NCBI RefSeq assembly: GCF_009937955.1
Contig: NZ_AP018439.1
Span: 5,456,001-5,520,000 of the forward strand
From: Undibacterium sp. KW1
GTDB lineage: Bacteria > Pseudomonadota > Gammaproteobacteria > Burkholderiales > Burkholderiaceae_D
DNA: 64,000 bases
Direction of reading: 5' to 3'
In this document: positions 1-50,983 of the stretch, one piece after another
Layout: every line of letters starts with the position of its first letter
Numbering within the stretch: position 1 is the first letter of the stretch
Position numbers and translations under genes: made by a program
The notes under the pieces: model-generated
Told to the model about the DNA's origin: nothing
The model's database searches: none
Seen by the model: only the letters and a program-made list of their open reading frames with translations

Positions 1-3000
1 TTGCCGCGCTGTTGAATAAAAATGGTAGCTCTTCGGTCAGTAGTACCACCTACAACATCGCCGCTGCCGATGACTGGAACAGCGCCATCACCGGTGGCAA
101 CATCCAGGACCTGACTGGCAATGGCATCACCGTTTCCAACGCTGCACCGAGCATCATCAGCTCTACCTACGATGCAGCCACAGGTATTCTGAGTGTCACT
201 GCCGTCAATATTGTCGGTGGCGACACCATTGATGTCAGCAAACTCTCACTCGTCGGCCAGGGTGGCGGTTCTTACACATTAACCACCCCCAACGTCACCG
301 CCAGCAGCAGTACCGCCTTTGCCGTGACCCTCAACGCCGCCGACAAACTCGCCGTCAATGGCCTGTTGAACAAGACTGGCACCACGGCCGTTGATGCCAC
401 CACCTTCAACCTGGCCGCTGCTGCTTCCTGGGACGCTACCACCACATCGGGTGCCGACCTGACCGGCAATGCCGTCACCGTATCGAACGTCGCCGCCCCA
501 ACGATCACCTCAGCCACCTACGACGTCAACACCCACGTCCTGACCGTCACCGGCACCGGCCTCGTCAGTACCCTCGGCGCCACCAATGACATCACTGTCA
601 CTGCCCTGACCATCAAAGGCGAAGGCGGTATCGTCCGGACTTTGTCGACCACCGGCAATGTCGAAGTCACCTCCGCCACCAGCTTTGCTGTGACACTGGC
701 CGGTGCTGACCAGACTACCGTTGAAGGCCTGTTCAACAAGAATGGCACCACCTCCACCGGTGGCACCACCTACAACCTGGCCGCAGCCGATGACTGGGAC
801 AGCGTCATTACCGGTGGTGACATTGCCGTCACCACGGCCCCGATTACCGTCTCCAATGTCGCAGTGCCGACCATCACCTCCTCGGTCTACAACGCCAGCA
901 CCGGTGTACTGACCGTCACAGGTACCGGCCTGACCGGCCTGACAGGGGCGAACAACGACATCGTTGCCAACAAATTCAGCCTGCAAGGCGAAGGTGGTGC
1001 CAGCTATACCCTCACCACCACCAGCAATGTCGAGATCACCTCCGCCACTTCCTTCACAATGACCTTGAGTGCGGCGGACAGGCTGGGTGCCAATCTCATC
1101 ATGAACAAGAATGGCACCAGCTCCACCAGTGTCAACACGTACAACCTGATCGCCAACGAAGACTGGAATGCCGGGGCTGATGCCGCTGTCGTCATTGCTG
1201 ATCTGACCGGCAATGGCGTGACCGTTACCAATGTGGTGGCACCTACCGTTGCCTCGGCGACATACAACGTCGGCACGGGCGTGCTGGTCGTTACAGGCAA
1301 TAACTTCCTGTCCTTGGCAGGAGCCAATAACGACATTACCGCCAACCGTATCCGTTTCCTGGGCCAGGGTGCCATTAACTACACCCTGACCACTTCCCCG
1401 AATATAGACATCACCTCCAACACCAGCTTCACCATGACCATGAGTGTCGCCGACAAGACGCAACTGGCACTGAGGCTCAACAAGGATGGCAACTCTTCCA
1501 CCGACGGCACCACCTACAACATCGGCATGCTGGAAGACTGGAATACCGGTGCCGCTACTGCTGTCGTCATCGCTGATCTGTTTGGCAATTTCATTACCGT
1601 CACCGGTAACAATGTCGCTCCCGTCATCGGCGGTGTCGTCGCTGGCCAGACCGTGACTGAAACCACCACGGTTTCTCCTTTTACCGGTGTCACCATCACC
1701 GATCCTGATGTCGGTGCTTCCGAAACCATCATCATCAGCCTCGATACCGCGGCCAAAGGCGCCTTTACTGCCGCTTCACTGGCAACCACAGGTTTCTCAA
1801 CCGCCGATGGTGGTCTGACCTATACCCATGCAGCCGGTACCCCGGCTGCCGTTGAGGCAGCTATCCGTGGCCTGGTATTCCAGCCAGCGGCGGGCCGTGT
1901 CCCTGTGGGCGGCACAGAAACCACGACCTTCACCATCAGTGCCAATGATGGTATTGCTTCTGCGGTACTCAATAACACCACCACCGTGATTGCGACGGGT
2001 GTCAATGCGGCGCCGACCAATATCACGCTGTCAAATGCTGCTGTCCAGCAGGGTTCTGCTGACAATACCAGTGTTGGTACTTTGACAGCGATTGACCCGA
2101 ATCCGGGTGATACCGCCAGTTTTACCCTGGTGAGTGGTAATGGGACGAATGACAAGGACAACAGTAAATTCACCATCTCGGGCAATACCCTGGTGGCGAA
2201 GAACCCTGTGGGCATGACACCGGGCAATTACAGTATCTTTGTGAGAGCCACGGATGCCATGGGTTCTGCCTATGAAAAGAACTTCATCATCGCCGTTGGT
2301 GACAATGTCGCCCCAACCGCGACCGGTATTACCCGCATCCAACCTGAAAACACCAGCCTGGGCACGATAGACTACAAGGTCACGTTCAGTGAAGCGGTGA
2401 CGGGCGTGAATGCGGCAGCCTTTGCGCTGGCGACGACGGGGACAGTGGCAGGAACCATCAGCAATGTGACCCAGCTTGATCCTTCTACCTACAGCGTCAG
2501 GATCACGGGATTGACTGGTGATGGGACACTGGGCCTGAATCTGAAGAATGCCGGTACTGGCATTGTGGATACGTCCAGCCTGGCTCTGAATGGTGGCTTT
2601 ACCGGGCAGTTGTATCAGGTCGATCATACGGCGCCGACGACGGGTATTGGTTCAGTGCGCCTGTCGAATGATGATGGTGTCAGTGGTACTGACTTCATCA
2701 CCACCATCAGTGACCAGGCCATTTCCGGCAACCTCACCGCAGGTCTGGCAGTGGGCGAAACCGTGCAAGTCTCGCTCGACAATGGTGCCAACTGGATCAA
2801 TGCACTGGCAACCATCGGTGGCACTGGCTGGAGTTTGCCAAACCAACTGCTGAGTGGCAATAACACGCTCAAAGTCAGGGTGGTAGATCTGGCGGGCAAT
2901 AGCGGGCCTACCTTCTCGCAGGCGTTCAGCATCAACCCTAATACTGACAATCCTGGCACGAGCGGCTCGGATGCGGATGGCGATGGCATCCTGCAGCGGG

Positions 3001-4247
3001 TAGAAGCAGAAGTGCCCAATTTACTGGGTGCTGGCAATGGCGATGGGAATGGTGACGGCATACCGGATCAGTCGCAGAAGAATGTCAGTTCGCTGTTGTG
3101 GCATAACAATACGGCGGCGAATAACCATTATGTGACGCTGGCGAACAATAACTTCCTGTCGCAAACCAATGTGAACACCACAGTAGCGCCAGCCACACTA
3201 CCAGCAGAACTGAGCATGCAGTATGGCATGATCACCACCCAGCTCACTGGCCTGGCTGCGGGGCAGGAAACCACGATGTCGCTCTATACCGATGCGATGG
3301 GCCCGGTGAATGGCTACTGGGTACAGGACAAGGCTGGCACCTGGACGAATATCGCCACCAATATTGCAACAGTGAACGGCAAGCTGAAAGTGGACTTCAA
3401 GATCACGGACGGTGGCATCTTTGATACTGACGGCAAGGTTGATGGCAAAATCAGCCTCACTGGTGGCCTGGGCTTTAAAACCACGGTGCCAACCAATCCA
3501 AGCACTTCTTTGCCGGGCGACAAGGATGGTGATGGCATCCCGGATGCGATAGAAGCCAGAGTCGGTACCAAGCTTGATGTCAAGGACAATGATGTCTTGC
3601 ACCGCTCTGACCTGTTTGCCATGCAGCTTTATCGTGACGTGCTGTTCCGTGAGGCAGATACCGCAGGTGTGCAGTACTGGCAGCAGCAAATCGACAGTGG
3701 CAAGATGAGCCGTGCCCAGGTGGCGGCGTCGTTCATGGAGTCAGCTGAATTCCAGAGCGGCATAGGCGGCATCACGCGTCTGTACTTTGGGGCCTTTGAC
3801 CGTTTGCCTGACCGTGAAGGTCTGGCTTACTGGATGCAGGCGCAAAAGGATGGCATGAATCTCTCCAAGGTCAGCGCTTCGTTTGTGTCGAGTGCTGAGT
3901 TCCAGAAGACTTATGGGGCGCTGGACAATACGGCCTTTGTGGACCGGGTCTATCAGAATGTGCTGCACCGTAGTTCAGATGCCGCAGGCAAGGCCTATTG
4001 GCTGGGGCAACTGGGTAATGGCCTCTCCAGGGGCGATATGCTGGCGGGCTTTACGGAATCGACGGAGTTCAAGGCGAATTCGCAGTCCAAAGTGTCTTTG
4101 ACGCTGGATTACATCGGTCTCTTGGGGCATGCGCCGGATCAGACAACGTTTGATGCGCTGCTGGCGCAGTCGGGTACGGATGTGGTCACGCTGATCGGGC
4201 AGTTTATTAATTCGCCTGAGTATCTGGCGAGGTTTATGCCGGTTTGA
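1..4247 (+). CDS. Large secreted repeat protein with C-terminal DUF4214 modules (5' truncated by window)
   Basis: The reading frame is open from the first full codon of the window (position 3), so the true start lies upstream and at least 1,414 residues are visible. The first part is a tandem array of beta-rich units of about 116-127 residues. Unit boundaries fall near nucleotides 142, 492, 863, 1237 and 1618, each opening with an (A/V)P-T/S-I-like motif and closing with an NKxGT motif and a DW pair. Next come a stretch around 1620-2010, a cadherin-like domain (about 2010-2300) and an Ig-like domain with an APTxT opening (about 2310-2620). Then follow Asp/Gly calcium-type spacers ([16 protein letters not shown]) around a region resembling the choice-of-anchor U domain. 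The last 220 residues carry about three DUF4214-type repeats (YxxxLxRxxDxxGxxYW). A surface or secreted adhesin-like role is inferred. No secretion genes are in view. Confidence 0.85.
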
Positions 4248-4719: not shown

Positions 4720-5589
4720 ATGCTGGAAATCCGGAATGTCACAAAAACCTTTGGTAAAAAACTGACTGCAGTCCATGACTTGTCACTCAATCTCGGTCAC
4801 GGTGTGATCGGCCTGATAGGGCACAATGGCGCGGGCAAGACTACGCTCATGCAAATGATCGCGACCCTGACACGTCCCAGCAGCGGCAGCATATTTTTTC
4901 AGGGACAGGACATTGTCAAGAAACCGCAGGCCATACGCCAGCGCCTGGGATTCCTGCCGCAGGATTTTGGTATTTACCCTAACCTGACAGCGCTGGAGTT
5001 CATGCAATATTTTGCCGCCCTGAAGGGTGTGCGCGATCCAGCCAGGATCAGGCATTTGCTGGAAGTGGTGAACTTGCATGAACAGGCCAAACGTCAGGCT
5101 TCTAGCTTCTCTGGCGGCATGCGGCGGCGTCTGGGTATTGCCCAGGCCTTGCTGAATGATCCAGACATCCTCATCGTCGATGAACCAACCGCCGGACTGG
5201 ACCCGGAAGAACGCCTGCGCTTCCGCCATTTATTGAGTGAACTGGGTTTCAAGAAACTGGTGATCATGTCCACCCACATCGTCTCTGATGTAGAAAGCAT
5301 CGCCAGTCAACTGGCCATCATGCGCCAGGGGAAATTGATTGCCTATGCAACGCCAGATGACATCCTGGCGCAGGCCCATGGACAAATCTGGACTGCCGAC
5401 ATTGCCAGTCATGAATATGAGACCTTGCGCAATAAAGTGCATGTATTGCAAAGCCAAAAACAGGGCAATCAAATGAGCTTGCGTATTGCTCATCCACACC
5501 AGCCATGTGCAGGCGCACGCCATGCTACACCCAGCCTGGAAGAGGCCCTGATGGCACAACGCTATGCAGTACAGGAGCTGGCAGCATGA
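4720..5589 (+). CDS. ABC transporter ATP-binding protein (ABC-2 type)
   Basis: A 289-residue ATPase. Walker A GHNGAGKTT is near residue 34, the signature SFSGGMRRRLG near 128, and Walker B ILIVDEPTAGLDP near 149. A switch histidine sits in the STHIVSD stretch. The frame is open further upstream, but ATG 4720 is preceded by GGGGGAC and starts the usual MLEIRNVTKTFG opening. The C-terminal 90 residues form an accessory domain typical of drug or antibiotic-type exporters. The stop codon overlaps the start of the following permease (ATGA), so the two are translationally coupled. Energising efflux through the next gene product is the likely role. The substrate is unknown. Confidence 0.9.
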   Translation: MLEIRNVTKTFGKKLTAVHDLSLNLGHGVIGLIGHNGAGKTTLMQMIATLTRPSSGSIFFQGQDIVKKPQAIRQRLGFLPQDFGIYPNLTALEFMQYFAALKGVRDPARIRHLLEVVNLHEQAKRQASSFSGGMRRRLGIAQALLNDPDILIVDEPTAGLDPEERLRFRHLLSELGFKKLVIMSTHIVSDVESIASQLAIMRQGKLIAYATPDDILAQAHGQIWTADIASHEYETLRNKVHVLQSQKQGNQMSLRIAHPHQPCAGARHATPSLEEALMAQRYAVQELAA

Positions 5590-7181
5590 GCCCATCCCTG
5601 CCAAATACACTGAACACACTGAACATTCTGCTTCTGAGTGAAGCTCGTCTGCGCCTACGGCGTCTGGGCAGCGTGGTCGCGATACTGGCAGTCATCGCTC
5701 TGGCCTGGGTCATGATCCCTGATCCGCAATCGGGTACGTCCCTGATGGTGATAAAAAGTACCCGTGTACTCTATACCAGCTCCACACTGGCTTATGGCAG
5801 TGCAACACTGGCCAGTCTGTTATTTGGCCTGGCCGGTTTTTATCTGGTGCGTGGCCGTATTGCAGAAGACATGCGCAGCGGCTGTGGTGCCGTCATCGCC
5901 GCTACGCCTGTCAGCAATGGCATCTTTTTGCTGGGACGCTGGCTGGGCGGTGTGGCTTACCTGCTGGTGCTAAGCACTGCCTTTATGGGTGCCATGCTGG
6001 TCTGTCATCTGGTACGGGGTGAAGGCCCGATAGAGCTGTTGATCTATCTGCAGACCTATCTGGCCCTGCTCTTGCCGATGATATTTTTTGTTTGCAGTTG
6101 CGCCATCCTGTTTGACAGTTTTTCACCCTTGATGGGCAAGCTCGGCGATGTGATTTTCTTTTTTGTCTGGGTCGCACAAATCGCCCTGCTGGACAAAGCA
6201 GATAGCGGTATTGCCGGTGAAATCAATCCTTACATGTATATCGATTTCATAGGTGCAGCCACATCGATGGCACATCTGAAGTTATATGTCAGTACCAGGC
6301 ATATCTCTTTGGGCACTGCCAGTTTTGATGCAAAACTCATTCCCATACTTTTACCCACCTTCATGTGGTCGGGCAAATTAATGGCCCTGCGTTGCGCCAC
6401 AGCGATGCTGGCCTTGCTGCCGCTACTACCAGCGATCGCCTTGTTCCACAGGTTTTCACCAGACCGGGTAAAAGTCAGCCAGGCCCGCAAGCGTCGCTCA
6501 CCCCTTAATTATTTAAATCAAATACTGCGCCCTTTCGCTGGCTTGTGCCAACCGTTATTTCGCCTCGCGCGAGTCTTGCCAGGTCTGGCCGGGCAAATAT
6601 GTGCGGACCTTGCCCTGACAGTGGCGACTACGCCTGTTGCTGGCCTGGCCTTATTGATCATCCCCTTGTTATCCATGTTCTTGCCAAGCGCAGTTTTGCC
6701 AGGTTTATTGACGATCACCGTCGCCATCTGGGGAATACTCATCAGTGATCTGAGCAGCCGTGACCATCAGGCTGCTACCGGTGAAATGACGGGCGCCGTA
6801 TCAGGCGGTATTGCCCAGCGTTATTTGCGGCAGTTTGCAGCTAGTGCAGTGCTGGGCTTGATGCTGATGGGTGTCATCGGTTTGCGTTGGCTTATGCATG
6901 AATCAATGCATGAGCCAATGCGGGCACTGGCCTTGGTGAGCGGCATTTTCAGCATGAGCGCGGTGGCCTGTTTGCTGGGACGCTTATCTAAAACGCCACG
7001 TACTTTTTTGTCGTTGTTTCTGTTTGGCATCTATGTTGCAGTGAATGCAAATAAAGCCCCGGTGATGGATGTATTCGGTTTCAATGGCGTGGCGAACAAT
7101 TTGTCTATCACCTGGCAACTGATGCTGGGCGCAATCGCACTGAGCGGCGGCTATCTATATAACCGCCGCGCAGCAGCATAA
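5586..7181 (+). CDS. ABC-2 type transporter permease
   Basis: A 531-residue hydrophobic protein with about twelve membrane-spanning stretches in two halves, separated by a basic segment near residues 300-330 (RKRRS). ATG 5586 overlaps the preceding ATPase stop by four bases, the expected coupled start. An earlier in-frame start would sit inside the ATPase gene. Together the two genes form a minimal export system; the fused two-half architecture suggests one polypeptide supplies the whole membrane path. No substrate-binding protein or regulator is adjacent, so the cargo cannot be named. The next 330 bases are non-coding. Confidence 0.85.
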   Translation: MSPSLPNTLNTLNILLLSEARLRLRRLGSVVAILAVIALAWVMIPDPQSGTSLMVIKSTRVLYTSSTLAYGSATLASLLFGLAGFYLVRGRIAEDMRSGCGAVIAATPVSNGIFLLGRWLGGVAYLLVLSTAFMGAMLVCHLVRGEGPIELLIYLQTYLALLLPMIFFVCSCAILFDSFSPLMGKLGDVIFFFVWVAQIALLDKADSGIAGEINPYMYIDFIGAATSMAHLKLYVSTRHISLGTASFDAKLIPILLPTFMWSGKLMALRCATAMLALLPLLPAIALFHRFSPDRVKVSQARKRRSPLNYLNQILRPFAGLCQPLFRLARVLPGLAGQICADLALTVATTPVAGLALLIIPLLSMFLPSAVLPGLLTITVAIWGILISDLSSRDHQAATGEMTGAVSGGIAQRYLRQFAASAVLGLMLMGVIGLRWLMHESMHEPMRALALVSGIFSMSAVACLLGRLSKTPRTFLSLFLFGIYVAVNANKAPVMDVFGFNGVANNLSITWQLMLGAIALSGGYLYNRRAAA

Positions 7182-7189
7182 ATCTTGCC

Positions 7190-7276
7190 TGTGCATAAAC
7201 CAGTGCATAAGTTGTAGATAAGCCCGGTCTTGCTTGTGGAGAAGCTGTAGATAAGTTGTAGATAAGCTGTGGACAA
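7190..7276 (+). repeat. Tandem array of seven DnaA-box-like nonamers with 11-bp period
   Basis: The 334-base gap 7182-7515 has no gene but holds tandem 11-mers of consensus YTGTRGATAAG. Read on the minus strand, the nonamers are TTATGCACA (7190-7198, an exact TTATNCACA match), TTATGCACT (7202-7210), TTATCTACA (7213-7221, 7246-7254, 7257-7265), TTCTCCACA (7235-7243) and TTGTCCACA (7268-7276). All others are one base from consensus. Starts are spaced 12, 11, 22, 11, 11 and 11, with one slot degenerate. All sites share one orientation and are followed by an A/T-rich stretch (about 7285-7390). DnaA binding is an inference from the motif. Confidence 0.65.
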
Positions 7277-7515
7277 GCTAGGGATGTTTTATTTCTTTTC
7301 AGCAAAGCACAAATTGTATTATTTGTAAGCAGACTTTAGTTTCATTGTTTTAGCAAAATGATGCCTCTATACTTTTTATACTTTTGTTGACCTGACGACG
7401 ATGTTTTCAGGTCTGCCGGAATCCTGTCTGCTGAGCTTTTTTTGCCGGGTTAATATATGGCCTGTTCATCAGCATCGTTCCCTCCGCATGTTCATGAACA
7501 GGATAAATTACGCCT

Positions 7516-9360
7516 ATGTCTAACGGATTGTCTCTCAAAAAAGATTTGGCAAAAATATTGCTGTATTCGCTGCTATCGCTATTCCTGATACCAGTGTTTA
7601 CTTACTGGTTTTCCCAGCATGTGGAAAACAAACAGGATGAAAAATTTCTCAGTTTTGTATCGCAGCAAATTGATACAGACAGTAAGCTGAGCGCTGAAGA
7701 AAAATTCCAGCAGCAAGAATTTTTCCGTCTGTCCCCACCGTCTAAAATCTGTGACAGCAATATAGCCGAAGCCGCCAGTTACAGAGAACGTGTATGCGCA
7801 CGCTATTCAGATAATTGGCAATTCATTATGGCCAAAAAAGTCTCGGCCTGGACCATGGTCGGTGGCGTCGTCTTGCTGATCAGTGTGCTCTTGCTCGGTG
7901 CTTTCGCCTTTCTCAACGAAAAAGCACAATACCTGAGTTTTGTCACAGGCTGGCGTGTGCTGACCTTGAGTTGTACTGCCGGGACAATTGCCCAGGGCGC
8001 GATGCTGATGTGGCTGTCGTTCTGGGTCACGGCGTATTTCATGAACCGCTATTCCATCAAGCTGATAGGCGTGGCCGTCATCTTTGTCGCGATTGCAGTT
8101 TTCTATGTCATCGTCAGCATCTTTAAACGTGTTAATAACAATCACCAGATCCAGGGTGAACTGATTTCTGAACAGGCAGCACCAGGTTTGTGGCAACGCG
8201 TACGTGAACTGGCGGCACGTTTGAAAACAGCAGCGCCAGATAATATCGTCGCCGGTATAGATGCCAATTTCTTTGTCACTGAATCCCCCTTGAATGTCAG
8301 CGGCAGAAGCTTGCGCGGGCGCAGCCTGTTCATCAGCATCCCGCTGCTACGCCTGCTGAGTCAGTCAGAAGCGGATGCCGTGCTGGCACATGAGCTGGCG
8401 CACTTCCGTGGTGGTGATACGGCAAACAGCGCTGCGCTGGGGCCCAAGCTGGCGCAATATGATCAATACTGTTTTGAGATGCGTAGCGCCCATGTGCCTA
8501 CTGTGTTTTATCTGATGTGCCTGTATCGCATGATTTTTGAAATCGCCTCTGCGCGCAATAGCCGTGACCGTGAATTTTTGGCAGACCGCATCGCCGCCAA
8601 AGTGATTGCACCTGCAGCAGTCACTTATTCACTGATCAAGATTGCAGCTTATGCCAACTACAGGAATGAAATCGAAAACCAGTTGTTTTCACGAAATGAA
8701 AGACATGGTGCCAGTGTAGGGATAGCACAATTTGTGGCGTCCGGTCTGCACCCATATGCGCGTTCGTCCGCCTTCATCGACACCATGAAACATGCGAGCG
8801 TGCCGCACCCCTACGACAGTCATCCCAAGATGACAGAGCGCATGAAGAACGTCGGCCATGTGATAGCCGAAGCTGATTATGGTGCCATCGTCACCAGCGT
8901 CCCTGCACAAACCTGGGCAGCCGATATACAGATTGCCGATGAAATTGAAGCGCGTTTGTGGACCAGTTATGAAGAAGATTTTTCACAGGCGCATGAACAC
9001 AGTCTGGCCTATCGCTACGAACCCGCCAATGAAGAAGAACAGGCACTGGTGTTACGCTACTTTCCACCGGTAGAATTTTCCCTGAGCGAGGGCAAAGCCA
9101 TACAAGTGACCTATGCAGGCTGGATCTTGCCGGATGAAACCGAGCCGCTGGCCTGGGACAGGGTAGATACCTATGAATATGAAGATGGGATGCTGTCGGA
9201 TACACTGACCATCAAGCATCCGGAAAAAGGCATGCTGGGTGCCAAATCGACCAAGGTAAAGCTCGCCGGTATCAAGAAAGTGCGGGAAGAGTTCAAGAAC
9301 GTCTCTGGCCATTACTGGCACAGGCATCAGGTCATGCGGCACCAACAGGCCTTGCAATAA
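7516..9360 (+). CDS. Membrane-anchored M48 family zinc metallopeptidase
   Basis: A 614-residue protein. It has one N-terminal membrane segment (about residues 13-33) and three more between about 110 and 200, then a peptidase domain. The zinc motif HELAH is at residues 292-296 (HELAHFRGGD). The downstream glutamate probably lies in the NSRDREFLADR stretch about 60 residues later. This is the arrangement of the M48/HtpX/Ste24 group, which cleaves membrane or periplasmic proteins. The last 170 residues (from about WTSYEEDF) form an extra acidic domain not expected in HtpX (about 290 aa), and I do not recognise it. The gene is monocistronic, with a strong terminator after it. A role in membrane protein quality control is possible but not shown. 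Confidence 0.8.
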   Translation: MSNGLSLKKDLAKILLYSLLSLFLIPVFTYWFSQHVENKQDEKFLSFVSQQIDTDSKLSAEEKFQQQEFFRLSPPSKICDSNIAEAASYRERVCARYSDNWQFIMAKKVSAWTMVGGVVLLISVLLLGAFAFLNEKAQYLSFVTGWRVLTLSCTAGTIAQGAMLMWLSFWVTAYFMNRYSIKLIGVAVIFVAIAVFYVIVSIFKRVNNNHQIQGELISEQAAPGLWQRVRELAARLKTAAPDNIVAGIDANFFVTESPLNVSGRSLRGRSLFISIPLLRLLSQSEADAVLAHELAHFRGGDTANSAALGPKLAQYDQYCFEMRSAHVPTVFYLMCLYRMIFEIASARNSRDREFLADRIAAKVIAPAAVTYSLIKIAAYANYRNEIENQLFSRNERHGASVGIAQFVASGLHPYARSSAFIDTMKHASVPHPYDSHPKMTERMKNVGHVIAEADYGAIVTSVPAQTWAADIQIADEIEARLWTSYEEDFSQAHEHSLAYRYEPANEEEQALVLRYFPPVEFSLSEGKAIQVTYAGWILPDETEPLAWDRVDTYEYEDGMLSDTLTIKHPEKGMLGAKSTKVKLAGIKKVREEFKNVSGHYWHRHQVMRHQQALQ

Positions 9361-39609: not shown

Positions 39610-39803
39610 AAGACCTCTCAACACAGAGGCACAGAGGCACAGAGACACAGAGAAAGGCAAGAGAAAACCTGGAATGATGATTTTTAGATTTGTCTCTGTG
39701 TCTCTACTTTTATAGAGACACAGAGTTAGAATACAAGAAGTTTTTTGGCCTTCTCTTGCTCTTCTCTGTGTCTCTGTGCCTCTGTGTTGAGCTTTTTGGT
39801 CTT
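39610..39803. repeat. Long hairpin repeat built of ACAGAGGCACAGAG units
   Basis: The left arm (39610-39668) and right arm (39735-39803) are imperfect reverse complements sharing the core TCAACACAGAGGCACAGAG. A smaller nested inverted repeat, CTCTGTGTCTCTA / TATAGAGACACAGAG, sits at about 39693-39725. The whole ~190-bp block separates the dehydrogenase from the DUF779 gene and could fold into a long cruciform or RNA hairpin. It resembles dispersed non-coding repeats; only one copy is in this window. Confidence 0.75.
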
Positions 39804-50907: not shown

Positions 50908-50983
50908 TGGTGCCGACTGCCGGAATCGAACTGGCCACCTGATGATTACAAGTCAACTGCTCTACCAAATGAGCTAAGTCGGC
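50908..50983 (-). tRNA. thrT: tRNA-Thr (anticodon TGT)
   Basis: A 76-base cloverleaf with encoded CCA. The acceptor stem is GCCGACT/AGTCGGC, the D-arm GCTC..GAGC, the anticodon loop CTTGTAA, and the T-arm contains GTTCGATTC. The anticodon TGT reads ACA and other Thr codons. The anticodon stem has one T-T mismatch at its second pair (GTTGA/TCATC). It lies downstream of sspB on the same strand. Confidence 0.95.

Follow-up and report, generated by a model that had tools for sequence, protein, structure and literature searches.

In Escherichia coli, weak DnaA boxes of oriC that lie 2 bp apart are filled cooperatively from neighbouring bound DnaA, as described in passages of PMC6727663. Passages of PMC4447404 report that Bacillus subtilis DnaA tolerates up to three mismatches in the boxes it binds in vitro, that most of the boxes bound in vitro were not seen bound in vivo, and that DnaA is a transcription factor at some sites. 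Outside oriC, the removal of six DnaA-box clusters in B. subtilis led to early initiation, and such clusters restrain initiation, according to PMC5295017; a further passage of the same review states that B. subtilis clusters with significant roles have not been identified. The datA locus acts through DnaA-ATP hydrolysis with IHF (PMC10950094; passages of PMC4585315), while the DARS sites have a core of three boxes, to which DARS2 adds Fis and IHF sites (passages of PMC4585315). Word searches of one open-licence collection returned no paper linking Undibacterium with DnaA and oriC, none on tandem intergenic DnaA boxes in Burkholderiales, and none on non-origin tandem-repeat DnaA boxes in replication initiation.

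We analysed a stretch of 64,000 nucleotides (the window) from Undibacterium sp. KW1, whose main contig measures 6.56 Mb. The window contains the following ladder of DnaA-box-like sites.

Window 7190 to 7276, minus strand: array 1, seven DnaA-box-like 9-mers, with matches of 35.9 and 27.4 bits to profile R1 (defined below)
Window 7222 to 7234, no strand: gap in the array 1 ladder (the 22-bp step), equally long in G021, G025 and U. umbellatum

Array 1 resembles the low-affinity arrays of E. coli oriC in that weak 9-mers lie in one direction 2 bp apart (passages of PMC6727663). The E. coli arrays lie within oriC, with four sites each beside strong boxes, whereas array 1 has seven sites with an exact box at its edge and lies 691 kb off the likely oriC. 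Like datA of E. coli, it is a cluster of DnaA boxes in non-coding DNA that lies on one chromosome arm, away from oriC, but the sources consulted on datA describe no uniform ladder with 11-bp steps. DARS1 and DARS2 of E. coli are likewise non-coding DnaA-box sites outside oriC, and they act on DnaA; in place of their three-box core, which we did not find in array 1, there is a longer uniform ladder of seven boxes in one direction. The DnaA-box clusters of B. subtilis, compared here through the review description in passages of PMC5295017, share with array 1 their location outside oriC.

Array geometry and chance expectation

The 9-mers of array 1 start at window positions 7190, 7202, 7213, 7235, 7246, 7257 and 7268, all on the minus strand, with steps of 12, 11, 22, 11, 11 and 11 bp. 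The site at 7190, TTATGCACA, matches TTATNCACA exactly, and the other six carry one mismatch each. Recomputing the positions reproduced the seven same-orientation nonamers and the steps reported in the initial annotation, and the geometry it proposed for cooperative filaments agrees with the one-direction 9-mers 2-3 bp apart in E. coli oriC arrays (passages of PMC6727663). The DnaA protein of this genome has a standard DNA-binding domain: its domain IV matches that of E. coli (1j1v) with an E-value of 5e-30 and keeps FGGRDHTTVLHA.

We found a chain of seven sites for the true motif in 876 kb, comprising the window and a further 812 kb taken from elsewhere in the KW1 chromosome sequence. Among 300 permuted motifs in the same 876 kb, the longest chain was one for 102 motifs, two for 193 and three for 5; in 100 dinucleotide shuffles of the window it was one (90) or two (10). 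The steps allowed in this test were 11, 12 or 22-24 and were set after array 1 had been seen. Elsewhere in the window, the densest same-strand group, with one mismatch allowed, was two sites per 110 bp. Chance is excluded as the source of array 1, because a chain of seven stands against at most three for permuted motifs and at most two for shuffles. Array 1 therefore holds more TTATNCACA-like sites than chance provides, as a DnaA-box cluster does.

Next, we examined how often such arrays recur. A whole-genome search for the 11-bp-step pattern gave 10 matches, four of them in array 1 and six elsewhere with three mismatches, and its control gave 3. A BLAST-type search with array 1 across the genus found 6 of 43 genomes at an E-value of 0.01 and was judged too insensitive, so we built profile R1, which spans 35 positions and three boxes and derives from 15 rows of known arrays. 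R1 scored 150 first-look candidates per genome in the genus search, 28 in the family search and 23 in the order search, and the counts of genomes with arrays are lower bounds because only this part of the candidates was scored. At an E-value of 0.1, R1 gave at least seven matches in the KW1 genome, with 150 of 1452 first-look candidates scored; at least four exceed 20 bits, two each for array 1 and for a second array (array 2), and three others are weak. Weaker matches, of about 15-20 bits, were excluded from array counts. Array 1 is thus not one of many dispersed copies, a concern raised at the outset: at least two arrays above 20 bits are found among the candidates scored.

Genomic neighbourhood

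Array 1 lies between two genes on the plus strand.

Window 5505 to 7181, plus strand: permease-like ORF without a Pfam match, with its stop codon 8 bp before array 1
Window 7279 to 7385, plus strand: A/T-rich conserved element upstream of the peptidase gene, 73% A+T, conserved in 6/6 aligned loci
Window 7516 to 9360, plus strand: M48 peptidase gene, downstream of array 1 (Peptidase_M48, PF01435)

An ABC ATPase (PF00005) is also among the neighbours, in agreement with the ABC exporter and M48 peptidase named in the initial annotation. Elsewhere, the window holds a 1411-aa repetitive protein at 12-4247, with two DUF4214 stretches at its end, and, at 39622-39652 and 39763-39787, two short arrays about 110 bp apart, in which CACAGAGG and TCTCTGTG, nearly its reverse complement, are repeated in tandem.

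The element at 7279-7385 is the A+T-richest among the window's 107-base segments, sampled every 5 bases. The A/T-rich segment described beside the array is therefore real, but it is kept in U. pigrum, where array 1 is gone, and by this pattern of conservation it is separate from array 1. The reading that it serves as an unwinding element of array 1 was rejected on the same observation.

By eye, the element contains a promoter-like TTGTTT (7345-7350) and TATACT (7368-7373) separated by 17 bp, about 70 bp downstream of the end of array 1. DnaA on array 1 might then regulate a peptidase promoter within this conserved element, as had been suggested initially, and DnaA does act as a transcription factor at some sites (passages of PMC4447404). 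This reading is possible but weakened, because U. pigrum has both the gene and the element and the array is not kept wherever they are. Furthermore, the promoter scan did not call the TTGTTT-17-TATACT site or any other plus-strand site and gave one minus-strand site, at shuffle level; array 2 lies inside coding sequence, and other arrays follow stop codons. We consider regulation of the peptidase doubtful. At the promoter-like -10, a 9-bp direct duplication, TATACTTTT, occupies window positions 7368-7385, and among the six aligned loci it is found in this genome and G021 only.

Array 1 begins 8 bp past the permease stop, which would suit a role in the transcript, and letter 6 of its units is looser than in the DnaA consensus, which would suit a site for another protein. 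Against both, the flanking C and G of the array units are the same as those of the dispersed exact boxes around oriC (CTTATCCACAG), and array 2 lies on the opposite strand from the flanking array-free DNA and overlaps the 5' codons of a gene. We observed no terminator-like site and no Rfam match in 7100-7560, which speaks further against a transcript role. A structured RNA at array 1 was rejected as a candidate, the only gathering-score Rfam match in the window being a tRNA at 50911-50983. Taken together, another protein or a transcript role appears very unlikely.

Location of the likely origin

The initial annotation had also offered array 1 as an ancillary replication element, and DnaA-like boxes beside the A/T-richest sampled 107 bases of the window are what such a reading, or that of a main origin, would draw on. 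We found a good oriC candidate elsewhere.

C1:6153541-6154470 of the KW1 genome (L012 8541-9470): oriC candidate, a 0.93-kb intergenic region with GC down to 33%

The candidate holds two modules, each with two inverted copies of TTATCCACA 158 bp apart, followed after the second box by TTAAC and a ACTACTACT-like run, which we take to be DnaA-trio-like. G014 and G016 have two copies each of the 158-bp TTATCCACA pair, and G006 has one. GC-skew samples between 3.0 and 6.17 Mb are mostly negative, with a single positive value at 4.6 Mb; those between 6.185 and 6.45 Mb are positive. Across a contiguous 492 kb, the cumulative skew falls to 6.155 Mb, is flat to about 6.28 Mb and then rises unevenly, with its minimum at 6.182 Mb, the skew alone being coarse. 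Five parS sites at 6.1255-6.1278 Mb, two exact and three with two mismatches, lie 26 kb from the candidate, and a backward control gave 4 strand-matches, so some are there by chance. A dif-like site at 2.810 Mb (2/26 mismatches, control 0) stands at 49.0% of the circle from 6.154 Mb. The dnaA gene, at C1:200 and followed by dnaN, is about 404 kb from the candidate, and the origin is probably not at dnaA, judging from these sequence features.

Array 1 is 10.5% of the circle away from this candidate and about 1.09 Mb along the circle from dnaA, as far from dnaA as first claimed. It does not show the combination of a skew switch, parS nearby and dif opposite; all skew samples between 5.0 and 5.9 Mb are negative and without a switch, which also answers the GC-skew check for an origin here proposed at the start. 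An origin at array 1, main or ancillary, was rejected on skew, parS, dif and the oriC candidate elsewhere, and the conservation of the A/T-rich piece without the array in U. pigrum adds to this; we regard it as extremely improbable. Its position outside the origin is that of a DnaA-box cluster.

Exact TTATCCACA boxes accumulate around the candidate. Within 50 kb of oriC we found 30 of the 80 exact boxes of the KW1 genome (1.2 expected; C1:6105000-6205000, L010-L014), in both coding and non-coding DNA, and 12/54 in G014, 13/42 in G016 and 5/27 in G006. When the central 2 kb on each side are removed, 23, 7, 6 and 2 boxes remain in the four genomes, respectively, with the G006 count not significant.

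Conservation and constraint of array 1

The M48 peptidase is 82-95% identical to proteins of U. umbellatum (G042), U. pigrum (G015), Undibacterium sp. TS12 (G028) and a Burkholderiales MAG (G025). Array 1 is present in five of six close copies of the peptidase locus, that of KW1 included, and is missing from U. pigrum, so the possibility raised initially that close relatives lack it was not borne out. More distant copies of the locus show no chain of three (G041, 59% identical) or one weak chain of three and no R1 match (G018, 30% identical). The spacing 12, 11, 22, 11, 11 is common to KW1, G021, G025 and U. umbellatum; the KW1 array is one unit longer than the other three, and TS12 differs in unit number and spacing.

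We then compared the core letters of the 9-mer (1, 2, 4, 7, 8 and 9) with letters 3, 5 and 6 across six orthologous units, without G021, a near sister of KW1, and without the KW1 unit at 7268. Core letters differ from KW1 at 2/36 positions in G025 and 5/36 in U. umbellatum, against 95/259 (37%) and 130/240 (54%) at four-fold sites in the gene that follows (p = 9e-5 and 4e-6, respectively, by Fisher's test), whereas letters 3, 5 and 6 differ at 7/18 positions in both comparisons, which is indistinguishable from the silent rate. In TS12, reported apart, 2/18 core letters and 131/227 four-fold sites differ. Counting variable columns, with TS12 entered through its first three units only, we observe 7/36 for the core and 11/18 for letters 3, 5 and 6 (p = 0.005). 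These tests cover few lineages, and a mild bias remains in them because the KW1 units were chosen by their resemblance to the box before being traced in register through the relatives.

These patterns bear on a neutral minisatellite, in which slippage of an 11-12 bp unit was seeded by a DnaA box and little or no function exists today; a chance minisatellite had been the null explanation at the start. Unit number varies (KW1 versus G021; TS12), and copy number variation and loss between close species, as in U. pigrum, are what such a repeat would show; one U. umbellatum unit has decayed to CCGCCCACA, the window holds other short tandem repeats, and arrays sit at gene ends, where insertions are tolerated. 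However, the letters do not all drift alike, as a neutral repeat would have it: within the same units the DnaA core letters are constrained and letters 3, 5 and 6 are not, and homogenisation is disfavoured because it would not result in core-only constraint. Additionally, unrelated arrays in other genera use the same box, and no permuted motif gave a chain above three. We consider a minisatellite of this kind unlikely.

A conserved core next to letters 3, 5 and 6 that change as fast as silent sites instead argues for selection on DNA binding rather than a decaying minisatellite, so that array 1 would share with DnaA-box clusters sites under selection in relatives, within few lineages. Over 73 units of arrays 1 and 2 and the G014, G010 and G022 arrays, letter 6 is C in 36, T in 22, A in 12 and G in 3; since the DnaA consensus has C here and only 36/73 units do, most sites should be weak.

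A second array within apparent signal-peptide codons

The second array of the KW1 genome lies closer to the oriC candidate.

C1:6196329-6196429: array 2, eight boxes, 42 kb from the oriC candidate

One box is exact, five have one mismatch and two have two, and the steps are 12, 12, 21, 12, 12, 12 and 11. Array 2 overlaps the 5' codons of a 207-aa PTP-NADK-like (phosphatase-like) ORF (PF22741) and translates as an LST-x repeat in an apparent signal peptide. This leader ladder is found in seven genomes: KW1, G021, U. pigrum, G025, U. umbellatum, TS12 and G010. Across them, threonine is ACA in 50/57 cases in the 50-codon leader versus 2/38 in the mature part, and leucine is TTA in 37/69 versus 0/89, with four-fold sites of the mature part agreeing at 45-85% between genome pairs. 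These codon counts are not independent draws, because the species are related, and part of the bias reflects descent from a repeat. Variable columns number 2/36 in the core and 9/18 at letters 3, 5 and 6 (p = 0.0003). One unit carries an off-consensus C at letter 9 in 5/5 species compared, which goes against a pure DnaA reading.

In another genome (L175 1430-1534), nine boxes at 12-bp steps encode an LST/LPT repeat that forms the C-terminus of an ABC-ATPase-like ORF, so that this locus and array 2 are two cases of a ladder read as protein.

Ladders in other genomes

We further searched for ladders across the genus, family and order, with ribE, parA, parB, xseA, exbB, exbD and glpK named by reading of translations. 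G014 has an array of eight boxes immediately behind ribE and 9 kb from oriC, overlapped by a 91-aa ORF and no long ORF. Upstream of ribE, G018, G005 and G004 carry chains of eight with 11- and 22-bp steps, of which R1 detects that of G018 only, at about 11 bits. Of the 40 genomes in which ribE was matched, 30 loci were scanned, and 11 of these have a chain of four or more. In G022, one chain of six and one of four lie between gene ends.

The family search with R1, at an E-value of 3e-4, found at least 19 of 245 genomes, in 9 of 44 genera. Of the 16 loci outside Undibacterium, 13 show four or more boxes in a chain within 3 kb; at the other three (L167, L168 and L174) there is no chain of three within that distance. 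Genus g29 has ladders between parA and parB in three genomes.

L165 1409-1533: parA-parB ladder, 11 boxes
L169 1450-1528: parA-parB ladder, 7 boxes
L172 1444-1533: parA-parB ladder, 8 boxes

The order search with R1 gave at least 16 of 300 genomes, with a chain of four or more at 2/14 new loci. At 4 of these 14 loci, in genus g126, which belongs to another family, a short box group adjoins xseA, and exbB/exbD-like ORFs lie on its other side in three of the four. Separately, DnaA-box clusters are present between xseA and an exbB/exbD-like pair, the same place as the g126 group, in KW1, G014 and G016.

L092 1931-2744 (C1:1741930-1742743): xseA-exbB/exbD cluster
L087 3206-4213: xseA-exbB/exbD cluster
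L089 3467-4629: xseA-exbB/exbD cluster

A genome from another family of the order carries, at L185 1421-1543, a group of four boxes and a group of five placed back to back, most of the boxes being exact TTATCCACA.

Discussion

Array 1 is real, and a function for it is better supported than a reading of the sequence alone could show. The best reading is that of a putative low-affinity DnaA oligomer or titration site, a variant of the datA and DnaA-box-cluster kind. DnaA, most likely ATP-DnaA, would assemble cooperatively outside oriC on weak one-direction boxes 11-12 bp apart. The most probable role of the array would be to retain or adjust the supply of free DnaA after passage of the fork, a role also ascribed to datA and to the B. 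subtilis DnaA-box clusters. The ladder fits a buffer site filled by DnaA-ATP because weak boxes are combined with one exact box at the edge; it would fill at high DnaA-ATP and so buffer the pool. We infer DnaA as the binder, its cooperative binding and an effect on initiation timing. That array 1 is a putative DnaA ladder kept by selection, and likely holds or tunes the free pool outside oriC, has in our judgement about even prospects. A datA-like reading is plausible, a replication-origin reading is not.

A redundant titration site fits better than a required promoter element, because U. pigrum has lost array 1 and keeps array 2. Array 1 may accordingly be a remote, dispensable member of a set whose other placed members lie near oriC or parAB, a view that we hold to be evenly balanced with its contrary.

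More tentatively, DnaA ladders may form a class of control elements repeatedly born in Undibacterium and relatives, made of about 4-11 weak one-direction boxes at 11-12 bp on which ATP-DnaA filaments would form off the origin. It is possible, at a similarly low level of confidence, that this class occupies places near oriC, next to ribE, in the parA-parB interval, inside signal-peptide codons and, in the case of array 1, at a distance of 0.7 Mb. If so, the DNA site might dictate the signal-peptide codons of the array 2 gene, which we advance with equal reserve.

Three results were surprising: the ladder located in a leader, those in the parA-parB interval and the concentration of exact boxes around oriC. 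Where a ladder overlaps a signal peptide, the protein would plainly be shaped by a DNA-binding site. The timing of replication by DnaA titration is an old question, and its models depend on box positions; if the present reading is true, the ladders, together with exact boxes that in the KW1 genome are enriched approximately 25-fold within 50 kb of oriC, would constitute a spatially arranged DnaA titration system. With exact boxes piled around oriC and weak ladders that come and go between close species, these bacteria would offer a natural experiment, in which species with and without a given ladder may be compared for initiation timing.
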